A stretch of DNA of 64,000 bases from Oceanicola granulosus HTCC2516 (lineage in GTDB: Bacteria; Pseudomonadota; Alphaproteobacteria; Rhodobacterales; Rhodobacteraceae), in assembly GCF_000153305.1 (NCBI RefSeq), contig NZ_CH724109.1, forward strand, positions 202,321 through 266,320, read 5' to 3'. Both the position numbers and the translations under genes were made by a program. Position 1 is the first letter of the stretch; each line of letters starts with the position of its first letter. A model generated the notes under the pieces. The model did no database searches, was not told the DNA's origin, and worked only from the letters and a program-made list of their open reading frames with translations. Positions 27,621-37,785 of this stretch are shown here, piece after piece.

Positions 27621-28583
27621 TCAGGGATAGTAGACGCCGCCCGTCGCGCGGCGGGGTTTGCCAATGTTCTCGGGCAGGGGGATGAACTCGGCCTCGTCGC
27701 CCGGCACCGTCTCGAACCGGCCCCGCGCCCATTCCTCCTTGGCGGCCTCGATGCGCTCGGGGCGCGAGGAGACAAAGTTCCACCAGATGTAGCGCGGCCC
27801 GCCCATCGGCGCGCCGCCGAACAGCATGAACCGTGCCGTCGACGTGGCCCTGACGGTGATCGCGTCGCCCGGGCGCAGCACGAGCAACTGACCCGGCGGG
27901 AAGCTGTCGCCCGCGATCTCGATCTCGCCCGAGATGGTGTAGAGCGCGCGCTCCTCGTAGGTGGCGTCGATCGGCACCTGCCGGCCGGCCTGCAGCTCGA
28001 TATCGCCGTAGAGCGTCTCCGAGGCGGTCCGCAACGACGAGCGCTCGCCGAAGGCCTCGCCCGCGATCAGCCGCGCCTTGATGCCGTCGCTGTCGAATAC
28101 GGGCAGGTCCTCGGCGCCGTGATGGATGAACTCGGGGTCGGATTCCTCGTCCGCCTCGGGCAGCGCCATCCACGTCTGCAGCCCGAACAGCCGCTGGCCC
28201 TGCTTGCGCTTCTCGTCGGAGGTGCGCTCGGAGTGCACGATGCCCTGGCCGGCCTTCATCCAGTTGACTGCGCCGGGGCGGATCGCCTGCTCGGTGCCGA
28301 GCGAGTCGCGGTGCAGGATCTCGCCCTCAAACAAGTAGGTGAGCGTGGCGAGGTTGATGTGCGGGTGCGGGCGCACGTCGATGCCCCGGTCGGTCAGGAA
28401 CTCCGCCGGGCCCATCTGGTCGAAGAAGATGAACGGGCCGACCATCTGCCGCTGGGTCGAGGGCAGGGCGCGGCGCACTTCCATGTCGCCCAGATCGACG
28501 GCGCGGGGCACGATCAGCGTCTCGATCGCGTTCACCGTGTCGCGGTCGCCGAGCTTCGGGTCGGGGATGGGGGAATAGCTCAT
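27621..28583 (-). CDS. pirin family protein
   Basis: The 320-residue protein has two cupin domains. The N-terminal one carries the pirin metal ligands in DVRPHPHINLATLTYLFEGE (two His) and IVHSERT (His plus nearby Glu). The C-terminal part (about 190-320) matches pirin_C. Pirins act as quercetinases or redox-responsive cofactors; the specific role here is not visible. GAGGA lies 9 bp before ATG 28583. It converges with the SARP gene (18 bp between stops) and diverges from the M24 peptidase gene. Confidence 0.9.
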   Translation of the reverse strand: MSYSPIPDPKLGDRDTVNAIETLIVPRAVDLGDMEVRRALPSTQRQMVGPFIFFDQMGPAEFLTDRGIDVRPHPHINLATLTYLFEGEILHRDSLGTEQAIRPGAVNWMKAGQGIVHSERTSDEKRKQGQRLFGLQTWMALPEADEESDPEFIHHGAEDLPVFDSDGIKARLIAGEAFGERSSLRTASETLYGDIELQAGRQVPIDATYEERALYTISGEIEIAGDSFPPGQLLVLRPGDAITVRATSTARFMLFGGAPMGGPRYIWWNFVSSRPERIEAAKEEWARGRFETVPGDEAEFIPLPENIGKPRRATGGVYYP

Positions 28584-28743
28584 GGTGTCGGTCCTCGTCT
28601 CGCTCTCGGGAAACATAGCGCATCGCGCGTTCAATCCGAGAGGGGGCGGCCGCATCGGTCGCGGCCATTGTGAGAGACGGCCTCGAACGCTAGTCACGCA
28701 CTGGATCGGCCGCGCCCGATTTGGCGCACAGGGAGGGACGGGT

Positions 28744-29979
28744 ATGGCGCATTTGAACCGACGGGCGGCGCAGCGCCTGATGCAGGCCGAGGGGCTCGAC
28801 GCGCTGGTGCTGTTCTCGCCGGAAGCCTTCGCGCACGCCACCGGTGCGGCGCCGGGGGTGGCGACGATGTGGCGGCGCGAGGGGGCGGTGGCGGTGTTGG
28901 TCCCGGCCGATCCGGGCGTGCCGGAGACCGCCGTCGTCAGCGACCTCTTCGCGGCGGGCTTCCGCCGCGGCAGCCACATTGCCGACGTGCGCGAGAGCGC
29001 GATCTGGGTGGAGTCGATGACGCTGGCCGAGCCCGACCTCGACGGGCCTGCCGCCGCGCAGTTCGAGCCGCTCTGGAGCGGGGCGGAGCGACCCGCGGGC
29101 AACGCGCGCCCCGAGACCTTCGACGCCCGCGCGTGCTATCGCCACCTGCGCGACGCGCTCGCGGAGAAGGGGCTCGCGCGGGGGCGGATCGGGATCGAGC
29201 TGGCGGCCGTCTCGGCGCGGGGCTACCCGGTCCTCGCCGAGGAGCTCGCCCCCGCGCAGCTCGTCGATGCGACCACGATCGCCCGGACCCTGCGCGCCGT
29301 GAAGTCGCCCGGGGAGATCACGCTGCTGCGCGACGCGGTGCAGGTCGCGGAAGTCGGCATCGCGGCGGTGCGCGACGCGGTGACGGTCGGCGTCCGGCGC
29401 AGCGATCTGGCGGCGGTCTGGTCGGAGACGGTCGCGGCCGAGGGGGCGGGGCGGCCGATGACCGGCGCGTGGGAGTACATCTCCGTTGGGCCCGACCCGT
29501 GGGGCGGCGACGCGGTCGCGGCGGCCGGCGACCTGGTCAAGGTGGATGTGGGCTGCCTGATGCAGGGCTACACCTCCGACAGCGGGCGCACCTTCGTCGT
29601 CGGGCCGCCGCGCCGCCTGCAGTCCGACATGCATGCCGCCCTGATGGCCGGCTTTCACGCCGGCGCGGCGCTGCTGCATCCGGGCGTGGCGCTGGCGGAG
29701 GTGCATCGCGCCACGCAATCGGCAATTCGGGCACAGGGCCTGAGCGGCTACAGCCGGGGCCATTTCGGCCACGGCCTCGGCACCGGGCCGGGCTCCGAGG
29801 AATGGCCGTTCATCTCGGCGCAGGCCGAGACGCGGATCGAAAGCGGCATGGTGCTGGCCTTCGAGTGCCCGATCTACGTCACCGGCGTGGGCGGCATGAT
29901 CGTCGAGGACCAGGTCGAGATCACCGACGACGGCCCGGTCTTCATGAACCGCTTGCCCCGCGACCTCGTTTCCTGCTGA
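28744..29979 (+). CDS. M24-family metallopeptidase (Xaa-Pro peptidase/creatinase fold)
   Basis: The 411-residue protein has a creatinase-like N-terminal domain (1-160) and a pita-bread catalytic domain. The five metal ligands are seen in order: Asp in KVDVGC, Asp in TSDSGRTF, His in HFGHGLG, Glu in AFECP and Glu in VEDQVEI. It therefore should be an active dinuclear hydrolase of a dipeptide-like amide or guanidino compound. It lies 85 bp before TRAP system 2 and may act on what that system imports. DddP or DoeA identity was considered; the ligand contexts do not match. Confidence 0.82.
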   Translation: MAHLNRRAAQRLMQAEGLDALVLFSPEAFAHATGAAPGVATMWRREGAVAVLVPADPGVPETAVVSDLFAAGFRRGSHIADVRESAIWVESMTLAEPDLDGPAAAQFEPLWSGAERPAGNARPETFDARACYRHLRDALAEKGLARGRIGIELAAVSARGYPVLAEELAPAQLVDATTIARTLRAVKSPGEITLLRDAVQVAEVGIAAVRDAVTVGVRRSDLAAVWSETVAAEGAGRPMTGAWEYISVGPDPWGGDAVAAAGDLVKVDVGCLMQGYTSDSGRTFVVGPPRRLQSDMHAALMAGFHAGAALLHPGVALAEVHRATQSAIRAQGLSGYSRGHFGHGLGTGPGSEEWPFISAQAETRIESGMVLAFECPIYVTGVGGMIVEDQVEITDDGPVFMNRLPRDLVSC

Positions 29980-30064
29980 CGGCGGATCGCTTGCACCCGG
30001 GGTGAGTTGACGTGCAGAAAGAAGCTCGAGACGCCTCCCAACCGTGATCCGACAGGAGACCCCC

Positions 30065-31078
30065 ATGAAAACCTCACTGCACGCCACCGCACTCGCCCTC
30101 GCCGCCGGCACCGCGCTCGCCGGACCCGCGCTGGCCGAGACCTGGCGCTTCAACAACTTCCTGCCCGAGACCCGCCCCGAGTCAGCGCAGATCGAGCAGT
30201 TCGCCGAGGACGTGAACACCGCGCTCGCCGATCGGGACTTCGAGATCGAAGTCTACCACGGCGGCTCGCTCGGCCTGCCCAACACCGACCTGCTGCGCGT
30301 GGTGCCGACGGGCGCCGTCGAAATGAGCCTGATGTGGGCGAACTATCTCGGCCGCGACGCGCCCGCGCTCGGCTCGGTCTTCGTGCAAGGCGCGATCAGC
30401 ACGGTGGACGAATTGCTCAAGGTGCTGCCCGTGGCCCAGGAGATCTACGAGGAGGAGTACGACGAGTGGGGCATCACCACCGTCGGCTTCGTCGCGATCC
30501 CGACGCTCTCCGTCTCGGTCTTCTGCCGCGACGAGCCGGTGAACACGCTCGAGCAGCTGCGCGACGTCAAGCTGCGCGTCTGGGCGCGCGAGCAGGTCGA
30601 GACCTTCACCAACCTCGGCGTCGCCGCGCAGATCATCCCGCAGGAAGAGACGTACGTGGCCCTGCGCACCGGCGTTGTCGATTGCGCGCTCTACCCGGCG
30701 CTCTACGCCAGCACGATCTCCCTGCAGGAAGTGACGGAACACGCCGCCTTCCTCTATCCGATGGCCTCGGCGCCCTACACGATCGGCGTGCCCGACGAGT
30801 TGTGGGAATCGACCGATCCCGAGATCAAGTCGGCGATCACCGAGGCGGCGGACGCGCTCTGGGAGCGGACCAACCAGTACGACGCCGACCTCGAGAACGA
30901 GATGGCCGCACGCGAGGCTCTCGCGGAGCAGGGGATCACCTGGCACGACGACTTCCCGGAGGAAGACCGCGCGCTGTTCATCGACGCGGTCTCGGAGACC
31001 TGGCAGATGCTGGCCGAGGAAGCGGGCGGCAACGCGCTCGACTACCGCGAGCGCGTGCTGACGGCCCTGGGGCGCTAA
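30065..31078 (+). CDS. dctP: TRAP transporter substrate-binding protein DctP (system 2)
   Basis: The 337-residue protein has a Sec signal (TALALAAGTALAGPALAE, about 24 residues) and the DctP fold with the binding Arg in DVKLRVWARE. AGGAG lies 6 bp before ATG 30065. Two cysteines (in VFCRDEP and VDCALY) may form a disulfide near the ligand site. It is divergent in sequence from the binding proteins of systems 1 and 3, so the ligand is likely different. The neighbouring M24 enzyme suggests an acylated or amide-containing acid. Confidence 0.85.
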   Translation: MKTSLHATALALAAGTALAGPALAETWRFNNFLPETRPESAQIEQFAEDVNTALADRDFEIEVYHGGSLGLPNTDLLRVVPTGAVEMSLMWANYLGRDAPALGSVFVQGAISTVDELLKVLPVAQEIYEEEYDEWGITTVGFVAIPTLSVSVFCRDEPVNTLEQLRDVKLRVWAREQVETFTNLGVAAQIIPQEETYVALRTGVVDCALYPALYASTISLQEVTEHAAFLYPMASAPYTIGVPDELWESTDPEIKSAITEAADALWERTNQYDADLENEMAAREALAEQGITWHDDFPEEDRALFIDAVSETWQMLAEEAGGNALDYRERVLTALGR

Positions 31079-31085
31079 GCCTCCG

Positions 31086-31625
31086 GTGACGCGCTTTCGT
31101 CATCACCTCGCGCAGGGGCTGGACCGTCTGGCCCTTGCGTTGGCGCTGGCCGCGTCGGCGTGCATGATCGCCATCGTGGGTCTCGTCACGACCAGCGTGA
31201 TCCTGCGCCGCGTCGCGGGCACGCCGCTGCACATCACCGAGGACGTCGTCGGCCTGCTGCTGACCGCGATGCTCTTCCTCGGCCTGCCCTTGGTGACGCT
31301 CAGGGCGCAGCACGTCCGCGTCTCCATCGTGTCGAACGCGCTCGAGCCGCGGTTCGGCGGCGCGGTGCGGATCGCGGCGCTGCTGGTGGGGCTGGTGTTC
31401 TTCGGCTGGATCTTCCTCAAGGCGCTGCCCTGGCTCGAGTTCGCGTGGAAGCGCAACCTCAAGTCCGAGACGGCGCGCCTGCTGCTCTATCCGTGGATGG
31501 CGGCGCTGCCGGTGTCGGTCGGGCTGACGTGGCTGATCTTCGCCGGCCGCCTCACCGGCCTGCTGCCCCCCGAGCGCCATGCCTCGCTCGAGGCGCTGCC
31601 CGACGTGACCGACAACAAGGACTGA
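31086..31625 (+). CDS. dctQ: TRAP transporter small permease DctQ (system 2)
   Basis: The 179-residue protein has four hydrophobic helices and the DctQ pattern ILRRVAGTPLHITEDVVG. It starts at GTG 31086, only 7 bp after dctP, without the intergenic hairpin found in the other systems. The dctM gene follows after 3 bp. Confidence 0.82.
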   Translation: MTRFRHHLAQGLDRLALALALAASACMIAIVGLVTTSVILRRVAGTPLHITEDVVGLLLTAMLFLGLPLVTLRAQHVRVSIVSNALEPRFGGAVRIAALLVGLVFFGWIFLKALPWLEFAWKRNLKSETARLLLYPWMAALPVSVGLTWLIFAGRLTGLLPPERHASLEALPDVTDNKD

Positions 31626-31628
31626 GCG

Positions 31629-32918
31629 GTGTTCTGGACCACACTCATCGGCGCGCTCGTGGCCAGCGCCGCCACCGGGGTCGCCCTCGGCGCGGCCCTC
31701 GGGCTGACGGGCATGATCCTGCTCCAGGTCTTCTCCAACGGCGCCACCGGGCTGGCCGTGGACGCGATCTGGAACGTCTTCAACTCGTTCACGCTCAGCG
31801 CCGTGCCGCTGTTCATCCTGCTGGGCGAGATCCTGCTGCGCAGCGGCGTGAGCAACCGCGCCTACGCCGCATTCGCCCCCGTCTTCAGCAAGGTGCCGGG
31901 CGGGCTGCTGCACACCAACATCGCGGTCTGCACCATGTTCGGCGCGGTCAGCGGCTCGAGCCTGTCGACCGCCGCCGCCGTCGGCTCGGTCGCCTACCCC
32001 GAGATGACGCGGCGCGGCTACGACAAGGACGTAATCGTCGGCTCGCTCGCGGGCGGCGGTACGCTGGGGCTGCTGATCCCGCCGAGCCTGTCTTTCCTGA
32101 TTTTCGGCGCGCTGACCGAGACCTCGATCGGGCGGCTGTTCATGGCCGGCATCGTGCCGGGGCTGATGATCGGCGCGGCGTTCATGGCCTACATCTTCGT
32201 CAAGGCGCTGCGCCAGCCCCACGTCGCGCCGCGCGAGCAGGGTCACATGCCGCTGGGTGCGATCCTGCGCGGCATGGCGCAGATCTGGCCGCTGCTGCTG
32301 CTGATCCTCGCGGTGATCGGCAGCATCATCGGCGGCATCGCCACGCCGACCGAGGCCGCCGCGCTCGGCGTCGTCCTCGCGACGGCGATCTCGTTCATCT
32401 GGGGCGACCTGACCCTCGCGAAGCTGCGCGAGGCGATCTTCCACGCGACGCTGCTCTTCGCCGCCATCGGCTTCGTCGTGCTCGGCGCGACGATCCTCGC
32501 GCAGTCCGTCAGCATCCTCGGCGTGCCCCAGCAGATCCTCAATGCCGTCGCGGGCAGCGGGCTCGACCGCTACACGATCCTGCTCCTCGTGGTGCTGATC
32601 TACCTCGTGCTCGGCTGCTTCTTCGACGGCCTGTCGCTGATGATCATGACCCTGCCCGTGGTCTTCCCGCTGCTCGTCGGCCTCGGATACGACCCGATCT
32701 GGATCGGCGTGATGATCACCATCGTCATCGAGATCGGCCAGGTCACGCCCCCCGTGGGCCTCAACCTGTCGGTCCTCGCGAGCCTGACCGACAACGAGGT
32801 CAGCCTCGGCCGCGTCGCCCGGGCCACGGTGCCCTACTGGATCATCCACCTCGCGGCGATCGCGGTGCTCACCGCCTTCCCCGCCATCGCCCTGTTCCTG
32901 CCGGACCTGCTGTTCTGA
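31629..32918 (+). CDS. dctM: TRAP transporter large permease DctM (system 2)
   Basis: The 429-residue protein has about 12 membrane segments and DctM motifs such as SAVPLFILLGEILLRSG, MFGAVSGSSLSTAAAVG and IGQVTPPVGLNLSVL. It starts with GTG. It completes the M24-dctPQM group. No terminator is obvious before the next operon, about 115 bp away. Confidence 0.9.
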   Translation: MFWTTLIGALVASAATGVALGAALGLTGMILLQVFSNGATGLAVDAIWNVFNSFTLSAVPLFILLGEILLRSGVSNRAYAAFAPVFSKVPGGLLHTNIAVCTMFGAVSGSSLSTAAAVGSVAYPEMTRRGYDKDVIVGSLAGGGTLGLLIPPSLSFLIFGALTETSIGRLFMAGIVPGLMIGAAFMAYIFVKALRQPHVAPREQGHMPLGAILRGMAQIWPLLLLILAVIGSIIGGIATPTEAAALGVVLATAISFIWGDLTLAKLREAIFHATLLFAAIGFVVLGATILAQSVSILGVPQQILNAVAGSGLDRYTILLLVVLIYLVLGCFFDGLSLMIMTLPVVFPLLVGLGYDPIWIGVMITIVIEIGQVTPPVGLNLSVLASLTDNEVSLGRVARATVPYWIIHLAAIAVLTAFPAIALFLPDLLF

Positions 32919-32997
32919 ACCCCGCCCGTTCGCTGGCGACAGGCTTGCTGCCGCCGCCGGCAGCGAGCCGCTGAAGATGTGTCCTTGCGCGATCGGA

Positions 32998-33008
32998 TAT
33001 ATGATATA
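32998..33008. promoter_or_regulatory. inverted repeat, possible GntR operator
   Basis: TATAT-G-ATATA is a perfect 5-bp inverted repeat in an A+T-rich island, 27 bp before the GTG of the GntR-dehydrogenase fusion. FCD-type GntR regulators often bind such short A+T-rich palindromes near their own promoters. The outer bases (GGA...CCG) match only partly. Confidence 0.45.
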
Positions 33009-33034
33009 CCGTCCGCCGCAGGGAGGACGTTCGG

Positions 33035-34810
33035 GTGACGGAGACGACCGCGTCGAAGGAGCGGCTGGAGCGGCAGAAGCTGTCGGAACAGGCGCGCGAA
33101 GCGATCCGCGACAGGATCGTCCGGGGCGCATTTCCGCTCGGGCGCAAGTTGCCGGAGGCGGAGCTGGTCGAGCTGCTGGGGATGAGCAAGAGCCCGATCC
33201 GCGAGGCCCTGCTGCAACTCGAGCGCGAGGGGCTGATCGAGATGGCTTCGGGCCGCAGCGCGCGCGTCTTCGCCATGGCCGACGGCGAGGTCGGGGAACT
33301 CGGCGAGCTGCGCCAGATGCTCGAGCTGCAGGCGATGCGCATGGCCGTCGCGCGCAATCCCGACGCGTTGCGCGCCGCGCTCGAGGACGTGGTGGCGCGG
33401 ATGGAGGTGGCCATGTCGCGCGGCGACACGGACGCCTACAAGCTGCTCGACAACGATTTCCACCACGCGATCTTCCGCAATTGCGGCAACAGCTACGTGC
33501 ACGACAACTACCGGATGCTGTCGTTCCGGGTGCAGGCGCTGCGCAACCGGCTGTCGCTCGACGACGCGCTCAACAAGAAGTCCCTGCGCGAGCACCGCGA
33601 GATCGCGGATGCCGTGGCCGCCGGGCGGATGGACGAGGCCGTGGCGCTGCTGGAGGTTCATATCGGCGACACGACCGACGCCTACCTCGCCCGGCTCGCG
33701 GCGGAGGCGGAGCAGGAGGCCGCGCCGGCGCAGGCGCTGGCGCCGGTGCGCGTGGATCTGGCCGAGATGGAGCGCTTCTCGCGCGCCGCGCTCGCGGCGG
33801 TGGGGGCGGACGCGGCCACGACCGAGGCGGTGACGAAGGCCCTGCTGCACGCCTCGGAGCACGGCGTCGACACCCACGGCTTCCGGCTGCTGCCCCACTA
33901 CCTGCACGGTCTGCGCGACGGGCGACTCAACAAGCGCCCCGACGTGCGCGTCGTGCGCGAGAGCGGCGGCGCCTGCGTGCTCGACGGCGACGACGCCCAC
34001 GGCGCCCGCGCGGCCTACGCGGCGGTGGAGCGGGCGCTGGAGCTTGCGCCGCGTCACGGGCTGGCGGCGGTGGCGATCCGGGGCTCGTCGCACTTCGGCG
34101 CGGCCGGGGCCTACGCGCTCGAGATCGCGCGGCACGGCATGATGGGCCTGGCCTTCTGCAACTCCGACAGCTTCGTGCGGCTGCATGGCGGCGCCGAGCG
34201 CTTCCACGGCACCAACCCCATCGCCGCCGCCGCGCCGGCGGGCGAGGGCGATCCGTGGCTGCTCGACATGGCGACCAGCGCGATCCCCTTCAACCGGGTC
34301 CAGCTCAGCCGCAGCCTCGGCCGTGCGCTGCCCGACGACGTCGCCTCCGACGCCAGCGGCGCCAACGTCACCGACCCGGACGTCGCCGAGATGCTCGCCC
34401 CGCTGGGCGGCGCGCTGTTCGGCTACAAGGGTGCGGGGCTCGCGGGGCTGGCGGAGGTTTTCTCCACCGCCTTCTCCGACGCGCCGCTCAGCGCCGAGCT
34501 GCCGCCGATGATCAGCGACGACATGGCGACGCCGCGCAAGCTCGGCGCCTTCGTGATGGCGCTCGACCCGGAGGCCTTCTCCGGCCGCGCCGTCTTCGAG
34601 GGCGTGATCCGCCGCTACCTCGCGGCCATCGCCGCGTCGGCCGCCGCGCCGGGCGAGACGGTGATGGCGCCCGGCACCCGCGAATGGGCGGAGGCCGCGC
34701 GCCGGCGCGCGCTCGGCATGACGCTCGACCGCACCTCCGTCGAGGCGCTCGCGCGCTTCGCCGAGGCGCACGGCATCGACCCGCTCCGGACCCGTCCGGA
34801 GGGGAGGTGA
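33035..34810 (+). CDS. fusion of GntR/FCD regulator and Ldh_2-family dehydrogenase
   Basis: One uninterrupted 591-codon frame joins two complete proteins. Residues 1-80 are a GntR winged helix (LLGMSKSPIREALLQLEREG). Residues 90-225 are an FCD domain with the metal/ligand pattern DNDFHH, REHREI and LLEVHI. After an Ala/Glu linker (about 228-243), residues 245-590 are a malate/L-lactate dehydrogenase-type (Ldh_2) enzyme with the catalytic GVDTHGFR segment and GSSHFGAAG. Family members include 2,3-diketogulonate, ureidoglycolate and sulfolactate dehydrogenases. GGGAGG lies 7 bp before GTG 33035. It leads the TRAP 3 operon, recalling E. coli yiaK-yiaMNO. It may sense and convert the same imported acid. 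Confidence 0.85.
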   Translation: MTETTASKERLERQKLSEQAREAIRDRIVRGAFPLGRKLPEAELVELLGMSKSPIREALLQLEREGLIEMASGRSARVFAMADGEVGELGELRQMLELQAMRMAVARNPDALRAALEDVVARMEVAMSRGDTDAYKLLDNDFHHAIFRNCGNSYVHDNYRMLSFRVQALRNRLSLDDALNKKSLREHREIADAVAAGRMDEAVALLEVHIGDTTDAYLARLAAEAEQEAAPAQALAPVRVDLAEMERFSRAALAAVGADAATTEAVTKALLHASEHGVDTHGFRLLPHYLHGLRDGRLNKRPDVRVVRESGGACVLDGDDAHGARAAYAAVERALELAPRHGLAAVAIRGSSHFGAAGAYALEIARHGMMGLAFCNSDSFVRLHGGAERFHGTNPIAAAAPAGEGDPWLLDMATSAIPFNRVQLSRSLGRALPDDVASDASGANVTDPDVAEMLAPLGGALFGYKGAGLAGLAEVFSTAFSDAPLSAELPPMISDDMATPRKLGAFVMALDPEAFSGRAVFEGVIRRYLAAIAASAAAPGETVMAPGTREWAEAARRRALGMTLDRTSVEALARFAEAHGIDPLRTRPEGR

Positions 34811-34851: not shown

Positions 34852-35847
34852 ATGACGAAGAAGCTGACCCAGGCCATCGCGCTGGCCACCACCGCCGCCG
34901 CCGCGCTGACCGCCGCCGCGCCGGCCGCGGCGCAGGACGCGGAGCGGATGCTCAAGTGGGCCCACGTCTACGAGTCCACCGAGGCCTACCACACCTGCGC
35001 CGTCGAGGCGCACGACGATCTCGTCGAGGCGACCGACGGCCGCTACGGCATCGAGGTCTTCCCGGCCTCCTCGCTGGGTAAGGAAGTCGACATCAACGAG
35101 GGCCTCGGGCTCGGCACCGTCGACATCATCTACACCGGCCAGCTGTTCGCCGGCCGGGCCTACGGCCCCATGGCCATCGGCGGCGCGCCCTACATGTTCC
35201 GCGACTACGAGCACTGGGACGCGTTCCGCAATTCCGACCTGTTCGAGGAGCTGAGCCAGGGCTACGCCGACGCCACGGGCAACCACATCGAGGCGCTCAC
35301 CTACTACGGCAACCGCCACGTCACCTCGAACAAGCCGATCACCGCGCCCGAGGACATGGAGGGGCTGAAGATCCGCGTGCCGAACGCGCCGCTCTACATG
35401 ATGTTCCCCGAGGCCGTGGGCGCCAACCCGACGCCGATCGCCTTCGCCGAAGTGTACCTCGCGCTGCAGCAGGGCACGGTCGATGCGCAGGAGAACCCGC
35501 TGCCGACGATCCAGGCCAAGAAGTTCTACGAGGTGCAGTCGGACATCAACCTGACCGGCCACATCACCGACGCGCTGCTGACCATCGTCGGCGGCCCGAC
35601 CTGGAACAGCATGGACGAGGCCGACCAGCAGGCGCTGTCGCAGGCCATCGACAACGCCGCCGCCTGTGCCACCGACGCGATCCGCGACCAGGAGGCGGAG
35701 CTGTCGGAGTGGTTCCGCGAGCAGGGGGTGAACGTCAACGAGGTCGACCGCGGGCCGTTCATCGAGGCGGTGCAGGCGATGCACAACGGCGAGATGGCGA
35801 CCTGGGACCAGGAGACCTACGACCGTCTCCAGGCCATCGGCCAGTAA
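34852..35847 (+). CDS. dctP: TRAP transporter substrate-binding protein DctP (system 3)
   Basis: The 331-residue protein has an Ala-rich signal peptide (about 28 residues, ending AAAQDAE) and the DctP fold, including MEGLKIRVPNAPLY with the substrate-binding Arg and the LQQGTVDAQENPLPT signature loop. AGGGAGG lies about 7 bp before the ATG. It follows the regulator-dehydrogenase fusion by 41 bp. The cargo is likely a hydroxy- or keto-acid that the fused dehydrogenase can use. Confidence 0.88.
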   Translation: MTKKLTQAIALATTAAAALTAAAPAAAQDAERMLKWAHVYESTEAYHTCAVEAHDDLVEATDGRYGIEVFPASSLGKEVDINEGLGLGTVDIIYTGQLFAGRAYGPMAIGGAPYMFRDYEHWDAFRNSDLFEELSQGYADATGNHIEALTYYGNRHVTSNKPITAPEDMEGLKIRVPNAPLYMMFPEAVGANPTPIAFAEVYLALQQGTVDAQENPLPTIQAKKFYEVQSDINLTGHITDALLTIVGGPTWNSMDEADQQALSQAIDNAAACATDAIRDQEAELSEWFREQGVNVNEVDRGPFIEAVQAMHNGEMATWDQETYDRLQAIGQ

Positions 35848-35887: not shown

Positions 35888-35913
35888 CCTTGCCCCACAG
35901 GGACGACGAGATC

Positions 35914-36492
35914 ATGACCGACAGGCGCGAGCAGACCGACGAGGACGGCCAGATCCGGCCGGCGCTGCATATCGAGGAAGACGAGATCGACCTGTCGGAC
36001 CTCCGATGGGACGACGCGCTCGTCATGCTCATCTTCTGGGTGCTCGCGTTTGTCGTCTTCCTGCAATTCTTCACCCGCTACGTGCTCAACGACTCGCTCG
36101 GCTGGACCGAGGAGATCGCCCGCTTCCTGCTGATCGCGGTGACCTTCACCGGCTCGGTCATGGCGGTGCGCAAGAGCGCGCACATCGCGGTTGAGTTCCT
36201 CTACCGATGGGTCCCGCGGCCGCTGCGGCGGGTGGCGCAGACGCTGATCGACGCGGTTTCCATCGCCTTCTACGCCGGGCTCGCCTACCTGTCGGGCCAG
36301 CTCGCCGGGCGCACGCAGCAGATGATGGTGTCGATCGACGTGCCCAAGTCGCTCGTCTACTGGTTCGTCGCCGCCTGCTTCGCCGCGATGGCGCTCTACG
36401 CGCTGCGCAATGCCTGGCTCCACCTGAGCACCGGCACCAGCAAACTCATCGACCCCGAGCTGCACGCCGACGCCGTGCGCGCGATGGACTAG
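35914..36492 (+). CDS. dctQ: TRAP transporter small permease DctQ (system 3)
   Basis: The 192-residue protein has an acidic N-terminal tail of about 35 residues and four helices, with DctQ patterns FTRYVLNDSLGWTEEIARF and VRKSAHIAVEF. ATG 35914 is preferred; a TTG at 35890 in frame would start inside the hairpin region. The dctM gene starts 12 bp after its stop. Confidence 0.85.
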   Translation: MTDRREQTDEDGQIRPALHIEEDEIDLSDLRWDDALVMLIFWVLAFVVFLQFFTRYVLNDSLGWTEEIARFLLIAVTFTGSVMAVRKSAHIAVEFLYRWVPRPLRRVAQTLIDAVSIAFYAGLAYLSGQLAGRTQQMMVSIDVPKSLVYWFVAACFAAMALYALRNAWLHLSTGTSKLIDPELHADAVRAMD

Positions 36493-36504: not shown

Positions 36505-37785
36505 GTGGAAATCGCCTTTCTCTTCGTCATCCTCTTCGGGCTGCTGCTGTTCGGGGTGCCGGTGGCCATCGCGCTGGCGGGCTCGTCGGCGCTCTACATC
36601 CTGGCCAACGGGATGCCGCCGCCGATGGTCGTGGCGCACCGGATGATCAACGGGGTCGACAGCTTCCCGCTGCTCGCGGTGCCGTTCTTCATCCTCGCCG
36701 GCAACCTGATGAACACCGCCGGCATCACAGAGCGGATCTTCAACTTCGCGCTCGCCCTCGTGGGCTGGATGCGCGGCGGCCTCGGCCACGTGAACGTCGG
36801 CGCCTCGGTGATCTTCGCGGGCATGTCCGGTGCGGCGGTGGCCGACGCGGGCGGGCTCGGCGCCATCGAGATCAAGGCGATGCGCGACGCCAAGTACGAC
36901 CCCGGCTTCGCCGTGGGCGTCACCGCCGCCTCGTCGACCATCGGCCCGATCATCCCGCCCTCGCTGCCGATGGTGATCTACGGCGTCGTCGCCGGCACCT
37001 CGATCGGCCAGCTCTTCGCCGCCGGCTTCATCCCCGGCATCGTGATGGCGCTGTCGTTGATGCTGATGGTCGCCTACTTCGCGCGCCGCCGGAACTTCCC
37101 GCGCGACCAGCCCTTCGTCATGTCGGTCCTGGTGAGCTCGTTCGGGCGCGCGTTCCTGTCGCTGATGACCCCGGTCATCATCGTCGGCGGCATCCTGTCG
37201 GGCGCCTTCACGCCGACCGAGGCGGCCGTCGCGGCCTGCGCCTGGGCGATGTTCCTCGGCCTCGTCGTCTACCGCACGCTGACGATGCGCCGGTTCCTGC
37301 GGGTGACGTTCGACACCATCGAGACCACGGCGGTGGTGCTCTTCGTCGTCGGCGCGGCGTCGATCTTCGCGTGGATCCTGACCTCCAACCGCGTGCCCGA
37401 GGCGGCGGCGGGGATGCTGCTGTCGGCGTCCGACCGGCCCTGGATTATCCTGCTGCTGATCAACCTGATCCTGCTGGTGGTGGGCTGCTTCATGGAAACG
37501 GTCGCGGCGATCACGATCCTCGTGCCGGTGCTGCTGCCGGTGGCGGTGGAGCTCGGCATCGACCCGGTCCATTTCGGGGTCATCATGGTGCTGAACCTGA
37601 TGCTGGGGCTGCTGACGCCGCCGGTGGGGATGGTGCTCTACGTGCTCGCGCGGGTCGCCAAGATCCCGTTCGAGCGCTGCGTCGTCGCCACCGCGCCGTT
37701 CCTGCTCCCGCTGGTCCTGGTGCTCGGCCTCATCACCTTCGTGCCGGCCATCACCATGTGGCTGCCGACGCTGATCTACCGCTGA
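36505..37785 (+). CDS. dctM: TRAP transporter large permease DctM (system 3)
   Basis: The 426-residue protein has DctM motifs FPLLAVPFFILAGNLMN, MSGAAVADAGGLG and LLTPPVGMVLYVLA and starts with GTG. It ends the fusion-dctPQM operon. Its stop codon lies in the left arm of a hairpin shared with the convergent SDR gene. Confidence 0.9.
   Translation: MEIAFLFVILFGLLLFGVPVAIALAGSSALYILANGMPPPMVVAHRMINGVDSFPLLAVPFFILAGNLMNTAGITERIFNFALALVGWMRGGLGHVNVGASVIFAGMSGAAVADAGGLGAIEIKAMRDAKYDPGFAVGVTAASSTIGPIIPPSLPMVIYGVVAGTSIGQLFAAGFIPGIVMALSLMLMVAYFARRRNFPRDQPFVMSVLVSSFGRAFLSLMTPVIIVGGILSGAFTPTEAAVAACAWAMFLGLVVYRTLTMRRFLRVTFDTIETTAVVLFVVGAASIFAWILTSNRVPEAAAGMLLSASDRPWIILLLINLILLVVGCFMETVAAITILVPVLLPVAVELGIDPVHFGVIMVLNLMLGLLTPPVGMVLYVLARVAKIPFERCVVATAPFLLPLVLVLGLITFVPAITMWLPTLIYR

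Follow-up and report, generated by a model that had tools for sequence, protein, structure and literature searches.

PutA is a flavoenzyme with a ribbon-helix-helix DNA-binding domain. It combines repression with proline oxidation and binds just the putA-putP region, which lies between its own gene and that of the proline transporter, according to a passage in PMC8249747. Trigger enzymes are few, five being counted for E. coli K-12 in that paper. In the GntR/FCD regulators DgoR, Ps5454 and TM0439 a set of FCD residues holds a metal, which DgoR requires for ligand binding at a metal-dependent sugar-acid pocket, as set out in a section of PMC7674646. Two histidines are stated to be invariant across the Ldh_2 family of dehydrogenases in a part of PMC3527362, which is also the source for the roles of the catalytic and cofactor residues of AllD, including the essential Arg48. 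TM0439, VanR Atu1419 and DgoR are stand-alone proteins that consist of a wHTH and an FCD domain, whereas the regulator described in the present work is fused to an enzyme.

The fused gene lies in a stretch of 64,000 nucleotides of Oceanicola granulosus HTCC2516 (contig NZ_CH724109.1, positions 202,321 to 266,320), referred to here in its entirety as the window; all coordinates are those of the window. The explanation that is preferred below, which from sequence comparison appears rather more probable than otherwise, is that the product of this gene is at once an autogenous repressor and a dehydrogenase, a regulator-enzyme that leads an uptake operon and would resemble PutA in its working.

The fused gene and its frame

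The open reading frame at 33035-34810 (plus strand, as are all parts of the gene) starts with GTG, encodes 591 amino acids with no internal stop, and is preceded by a Shine-Dalgarno-like GGGAGGA at 33021-33027. Three Pfam domains, each above its curated cut-off, share this single frame: a GntR winged-helix DNA-binding domain (PF00392, E 1.8e-15) at residues 16-78 (33080-33268), an FCD sensor domain (PF07729, E 1e-23) at residues 88-211 (33296-33667), and an Ldh_2 dehydrogenase domain (PF02615, E 7e-89) at residues 241-572 (33755-34750). At E values up to 0.001 no other Pfam domain is found in it. The FCD and Ldh_2 domains are joined by a linker at residues 212-240 (about 33668-33754), which contains zero stops.

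After the removal of repeats there are 18 distinct fused genes including that of the window, a count which omits L024, L025 and L049/L077 as second copies of L015, L009 and L008 respectively. The window's protein is 57-82% identical to the other fused proteins, and the frames are open across the junction. The length of the linker varies among the fusions with the frame kept, and none of its 29 columns is invariant in the 18-row alignment. Since 17 distinct genes elsewhere have the same fusion in frame, an artefact of one genome is excluded, and a missed stop, a frameshift or a sequencing error in the window genome is ruled out as the source of the fused frame. The original prediction, made from the letters of the window, that this is a single-protein fusion with no stop or frameshift in its linker is thus confirmed, and its further statement that both halves keep their key motifs finds support in ligand, catalytic and cofactor residues that are invariant in all 18 proteins, as detailed below. 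The possibility that homologues are always separate genes fails in view of the 17 further fused genes; homologues of the enzyme half are nonetheless mostly separate, being so, for example, in 20 of the 25 matching genomes of the family. An annotation that names a single domain would miss either the regulator or the enzyme.

Distribution and descent

The genome scan produced 15 loci in each of which the match covers both halves. In the whole-genome sampling, fused matches were found in 5 of 394 genomes at the family level and in 5 of 390 at the order level, 4 of the latter 5 being genomes of the family sample, while the sole fused match in the class sample (385 genomes), and likewise in the phylum sample (398 genomes), was the window's own. 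GntR/FCD-Ldh_2 fusions are therefore rare among the genomes sampled; they occur in some relatives of Rhodobacter, just 5' of uptake-system genes. None of the 22 plasmid records with a match reaches 80% query coverage. The occurrence of the fusion is patchy, as two other genomes of the window's genus have no match at E 1e-110.

A single branch separates the 18 fused rows from all others, both in the tree built from 48 Ldh_2 domains (support 100/100) and in that built from 43 GntR-type domains (97/95). A second GntR tree, to which four free relatives of the regulator half were added and from which four long-branch rows were dropped (L057, L082, the second GntR in L008, and L059 2571-3299), supports the fused clade at 98/99. 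The one-clade trees of either half fit a single fusion event but do not prove it, and the free relatives of the regulator half appear as sisters of the fused clade with low support (81/53 and 88/64). The GntR gene that neighbours the rhizobial-type stand-alone enzyme is rejected as the source of the regulator half, as that gene belongs to a separate clade and lies 3' of the enzyme. The GntR/FCD gene of Qingshengfaniella is unsupported as a direct ancestor, since the trees place it on a long branch that is not part of the fused clade. In Qingshengfaniella alkalisoli (L088:6088-7954) this separate GntR/FCD gene and a stand-alone Ldh_2 gene have an overlap of 8 bases and stand in the order of the fusion, which makes an independent near-fusion, possibly with translational coupling.

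Integrity and predicted structure of the two halves

The putative FCD metal ligands D139, H143, H187 and H209 are invariant in all 18 proteins, and their spacing (4, 44, 22) equals that of N144, H148, H192 and H214 of Ps5454 as given in the relevant section of PMC7674646. The fusion accordingly has a putative Asp/Asn-His-His-His set of the metal type, assigned by motif and spacing. In the Ldh_2 half, which was aligned to the 1z2i and AllD chains, H281 and H353 correspond to His44 and His116 of AllD, and T393, P395, D411, K465 and G547 correspond to the AllD NAD(P) contacts Thr156, Pro158, Asp174, Lys224 and Gly306; all of these, together with S377 and D378, are invariant (18/18). The position of AllD Arg48 is occupied by Leu285 in every fused protein, with an arginine one residue earlier, as in 1z2i, so the substrate of AllD is not implied; the NCBIfam AllD model scores 155.5 bits, below its cut-off of 496.2.

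The Ldh_2 domain is the most conserved part of the protein, with 137 of 332 columns invariant over the 18 rows, compared with 20 of 124 for FCD. In 10 of 11 pairs, hand-picked out of the 153 possible, dN/dS (NG86) ranges over 0.04-0.26 in the HTH, 0.13-0.36 in FCD and 0.06-0.22 in Ldh_2, with 0.20-0.82 in the linker; all three domains are under purifying selection (dN/dS below 0.4) in these 10 chosen pairs. Taken together, both halves look functional. The remaining pair, L026/L011, has values of 0.55 in the HTH, 0.56 in FCD and 0.16 in Ldh_2. The fusion of L026 (genome G188; also L075:8984-10759) is the exception among the 18 in that its palindrome is absent and its recognition-helix region is altered. 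It is perhaps a case of natural drift of the regulator with the enzyme half still constrained, and the contrast in dN/dS, which comes from one pair, does not assign the change to L026 for certain.

A structure model built from the 18-sequence alignment is of moderate quality (mean pLDDT 76, pTM 0.57), with pLDDT below 50 at residues 228-234 in the linker, at 383-393 and in much of 415-470, the latter two stretches being part of the Ldh_2 active site. GntR/FCD regulators match the model over residues 14-224: 9isw with Z 23.5 (rmsd 2.3 over 206), 2hs5 with Z 23.4 (rmsd 2.2 over 207), TM0439 (3sxy) with Z 22.5 (rmsd 2.5 over 201) and VanR Atu1419 (6z74) with Z 17.8 (rmsd 5.0 over 212). Ldh_2 enzymes match it over residues 237-587, 1z2i with rmsd 3.5 over 292 at Z 28.7. 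The predicted N-terminus has the layout of the FadR/FCD subfamily, in which a GntR wHTH is followed by an all-helical FCD domain.

A palindrome upstream of the fused genes

Comparison of the fusion loci, in which one strand was read, revealed an AT-rich palindrome with the consensus GGTATATSATATACC at 18-27 nt 5' of the start codon in 17 of the 18 fused genes. In the window this putative operator is GATATATGATATACC at 32996-33010. Measured over the 14 fixed positions of the consensus, the match is at least 12 in 14 of the 18 genes, 10 in L006, L012 and L014, and 7 in L026, while the best match elsewhere within each fusion locus is 9 or 10. The three weak palindromes were counted for their position and for symmetry at 14 of 15; those of L012 and L014 score the same as the best match elsewhere in their own locus, and for 5 of the 17 (L001, L006, L012, L013, L014) at least one of 500 shuffled versions of the upstream region scores as high or higher. 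As judged by comparison alone, a putative palindromic operator at the regulated operon, a feature of the FadR/FCD subfamily of GntR regulators, is found in 17 of 18 loci, with three of them weak.

In the window genome (4.05 Mb) an exact match to the palindrome occurs in one place, 32996-33010, and further exact genomic targets are absent, the other places having 2 or 3 mismatches. At up to 3 mismatches there are 7 matches genome-wide, two of which are the window's own site, and one place is counted on both strands; the reversed control pattern gives 1 match. The place with 2 mismatches is close to an ORF that, judged by eye, is shikimate-kinase-like.

The search of the class found four stand-alone proteins that are 38-46% identical to the regulator half, and all four adjoin TRAP genes. 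Their loci match the palindrome at 12 of 14 positions in three cases and at 10 of 14 in the fourth, this being the sole match of at least 10 per locus, upstream of where the similarity to the regulator starts. In L096 and L098 it lies between the free regulator and a divergent gene for a TRAP binding protein, and in L097 it lies inside the longest reading of the free regulator ORF, the true start of which is probably later. By comparison, a match of at least 12 of 14 is absent from all 31 loci in which the enzyme is not fused (30 distinct, since L059 and L088 are one place). Because it is present at this strength in three of the four free relatives and in none of the 31 non-fused enzyme loci, the palindrome seems to accompany the regulator half, whether free or fused.

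The palindrome is the site that the fusion itself would bind, and its closeness to the start codon fits a repressor. A TTG at 32985-32987 (plus strand), 11 nt upstream of the palindrome, is possibly part of a -35 element, and the nearest TTG stands at this distance in 13 of the 18 genes; its promoter role is one that we infer, since a scan of 32880-33120 for the sigma-70 consensus found no promoter-like site.

The TRAP genes and the likely substrate

The fusion is followed on the same strand by the genes of one TRAP transporter: the solute-binding protein DctP at 34852-35847 (PF03480), the small permease DctQ at 35890-36492 (PF04290; its start is possibly the ATG at 35914) and the large permease DctM at 36505-37785 (NCBIfam TIGR00786, 456.7 bits against a cut-off of 268.45). 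A scan for the terminator consensus found none, and the RNA structure of the gap between the fusion and dctP is ordinary (z 0.40). A DctP counterpart stands next to the fusion in all 18 loci, and the complete set of DctP, DctQ and DctM is found 3' of it in 17, the contig of L006 ending inside DctP. No further gene, enzymes included, is common to most fusion loci within the flanks; an SDR-type gene is near 3 and one other family is near 2.

In four genomes with a non-fused enzyme (L060, L078, L079, L080) the binding protein is 76-81% and the permease 85% identical to those of the window, and the TRAP set is directly followed by the stand-alone enzyme, with no match to the regulator profile in these TRAP-enzyme stretches. 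Since the close transporter is thus paired with the enzyme in the non-fused state as well, the two probably serve one pathway.

The substrate of the fusion is, from gene context, most likely a sugar acid. Among 6 annotated plasmid regions there are 4 in which a separate FCD/GntR-type gene and a more distantly related TRAP set come after the stand-alone enzyme, with L-idonate 5-dehydrogenase or uxu-type genes next, the other two regions being arranged differently; it is these neighbours, together with a gene of the galactarate/altronate-dehydratase family directly after DctM of the fusion-TRAP genes in L012 (L012:10748-12274), that indicate such an acid. Among PDB structures of TRAP binding proteins the closest is 4pc9/4pcd, for which no relevant substrate paper was found; the entries presumably contain D-mannonate and L-galactonate. 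A precedent is the import of L-gulonate by a TRAP system, as described in a portion of PMC5788505.

The genes directly upstream of the fusion in the window, which run in the same direction, are those of an M24 peptidase and of a second TRAP set (28744-32918), with a pirin gene on the minus strand further upstream (27621-28586). No counterpart of the peptidase and second TRAP set was found upstream of the other fusions within the flanks, which are shorter than 2 kb in L006, L011 and L014.

Proposed mechanism and alternative explanations

Comparison of sequences supplies the one open frame, the retention of the fusion and of its palindrome, the intact sites in both halves and the linkage to the transporter. 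In the mechanism proposed on this basis, the fusion gene would be co-transcribed with dctPQM, and the GntR domain would bind the palindrome at 32996-33010, just 5' of its own start, repressing rather than activating the operon. The transported acid, or an oxidised or reduced form of it, would enter the metal-type FCD pocket, whereupon the protein would leave the operator and the levels of transporter and enzyme would rise together. The Ldh_2 domain on the same chain would then interconvert the 2-hydroxy and 2-keto forms of the acid with NAD(P), and as the signal is consumed by this turnover repression would return. Direct sensing by FCD is a simpler assumption than sensing by turnover or at both sites, because the metal-type FCD site is intact. 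The protein that processes the acid would thus probably also help to decide on its import. The original suggestion of a regulator that is also an enzyme of the operon it heads is supported, by comparison, by the palindrome, the invariant ligand and catalytic residues and the TRAP linkage, and the trigger-enzyme design that it proposed remains the best reading, one in which a single conserved ORF with DNA-binding and enzyme domains would act in the manner of PutA.

The strong rival to this reading overlaps it and denies the coupling of the halves alone: an ordinary inducer-sensing GntR/FCD regulator and an ordinary Ldh_2 enzyme would be fused on one chain for plain co-expression, with no mutual effect. 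The chance that this is so is about even. The linker without a single invariant column, the FCD site that looks complete by itself, and the four genomes that have the close TRAP transporter with the enzyme and without a fused regulator all speak for it. However, the fusion has been retained over deep divergence, with the regulator half down to 43% identity, and the trees contain no separate gene inside the fused clade, which together suggest that some benefit attaches to being fused.

Another reading is that the two halves influence one another: FCD would sense the substrate, catalysis by Ldh_2 and its NAD(P)H state would reset operator binding, and operator binding would in turn set the activity of the enzyme. 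If this were true, a single protein would form a feedback circuit for uptake and the first catabolic step. Crosstalk across so variable a linker is possible but unsupported, and it is considered doubtful here.

A further alternative takes the Ldh_2 domain as the sensor, its substrate or the NADH/NAD ratio setting DNA binding, with FCD serving mainly as a dimerisation spacer. While the invariance of the cofactor residues in all 18 proteins and the high conservation of Ldh_2 would be expected in that case, the four putative FCD ligands are equally invariant, which would be needless in a spacer, and the low dN/dS of FCD in 10 of the 11 chosen pairs also stands against this alternative, which is improbable. 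It is still less probable that the enzyme half is inactive and acts as a ligand-binding domain alone, for which BzdR, with its inactive kinase-like domain, offers a precedent (in the relevant part of PMC3602430), given that all 18 proteins retain the two candidate catalytic histidines as well as the cofactor contacts listed above, and that no other enzyme is common to most loci. Equally slight is the chance that translation also starts internally and gives a free dehydrogenase, making the full-length fusion one of two products: all 18 genes have an in-frame ATG at residue 245, and a GTG at 238 is preceded by GGAGG in L002, but residue 245 falls inside the Ldh_2 domain, the Shine-Dalgarno match of this ATG is at most 3 bases in all 18, and the 5-base match at 238 is limited to L002, so that an internal start for a free enzyme is a weak candidate.

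Comparison with known systems

The autogenous repressor-dehydrogenase that is preferred here has counterparts for each of its parts. DgoR, with its sugar-acid pocket, is likened to the regulator half by description alone. On the enzyme side, 1z2i of Agrobacterium tumefaciens, an Ldh_2 protein that is 55% (Foldseek) or 47% (VIA-align, Z 28.7) identical to the fusion, shares its arginine/leucine pattern at the position of AllD Arg48 but is encoded by a separate gene. Because free halves exist, the regulator with its palindrome and the enzyme with its close transporter, the gain from fusing them is directly testable.

The original prediction knew of no described example of this domain pair, and none was found in searches of an open-access library. 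In MocR/GabR proteins a GntR-type wHTH is likewise joined to an enzyme-derived domain; their partner is a fold-type-I PLP domain, which Pfam does not find in the fusion at E values up to 0.001. In the fusion the one-component regulator is complete, with both DNA-binding and sensor domains, and the enzyme therefore comes on top of the sensor and does not take its place. To our knowledge PutA has no FCD sensor and is not homologous to the GntR/FCD-Ldh_2 fusion. The likeness to PutA is that one chain joins a domain that binds DNA to a catabolic dehydrogenase; fusions of GntR with enzyme-derived domains being already known from MocR, what appears to be new is the pairing of a putative GntR/FCD repressor with an Ldh_2 dehydrogenase.
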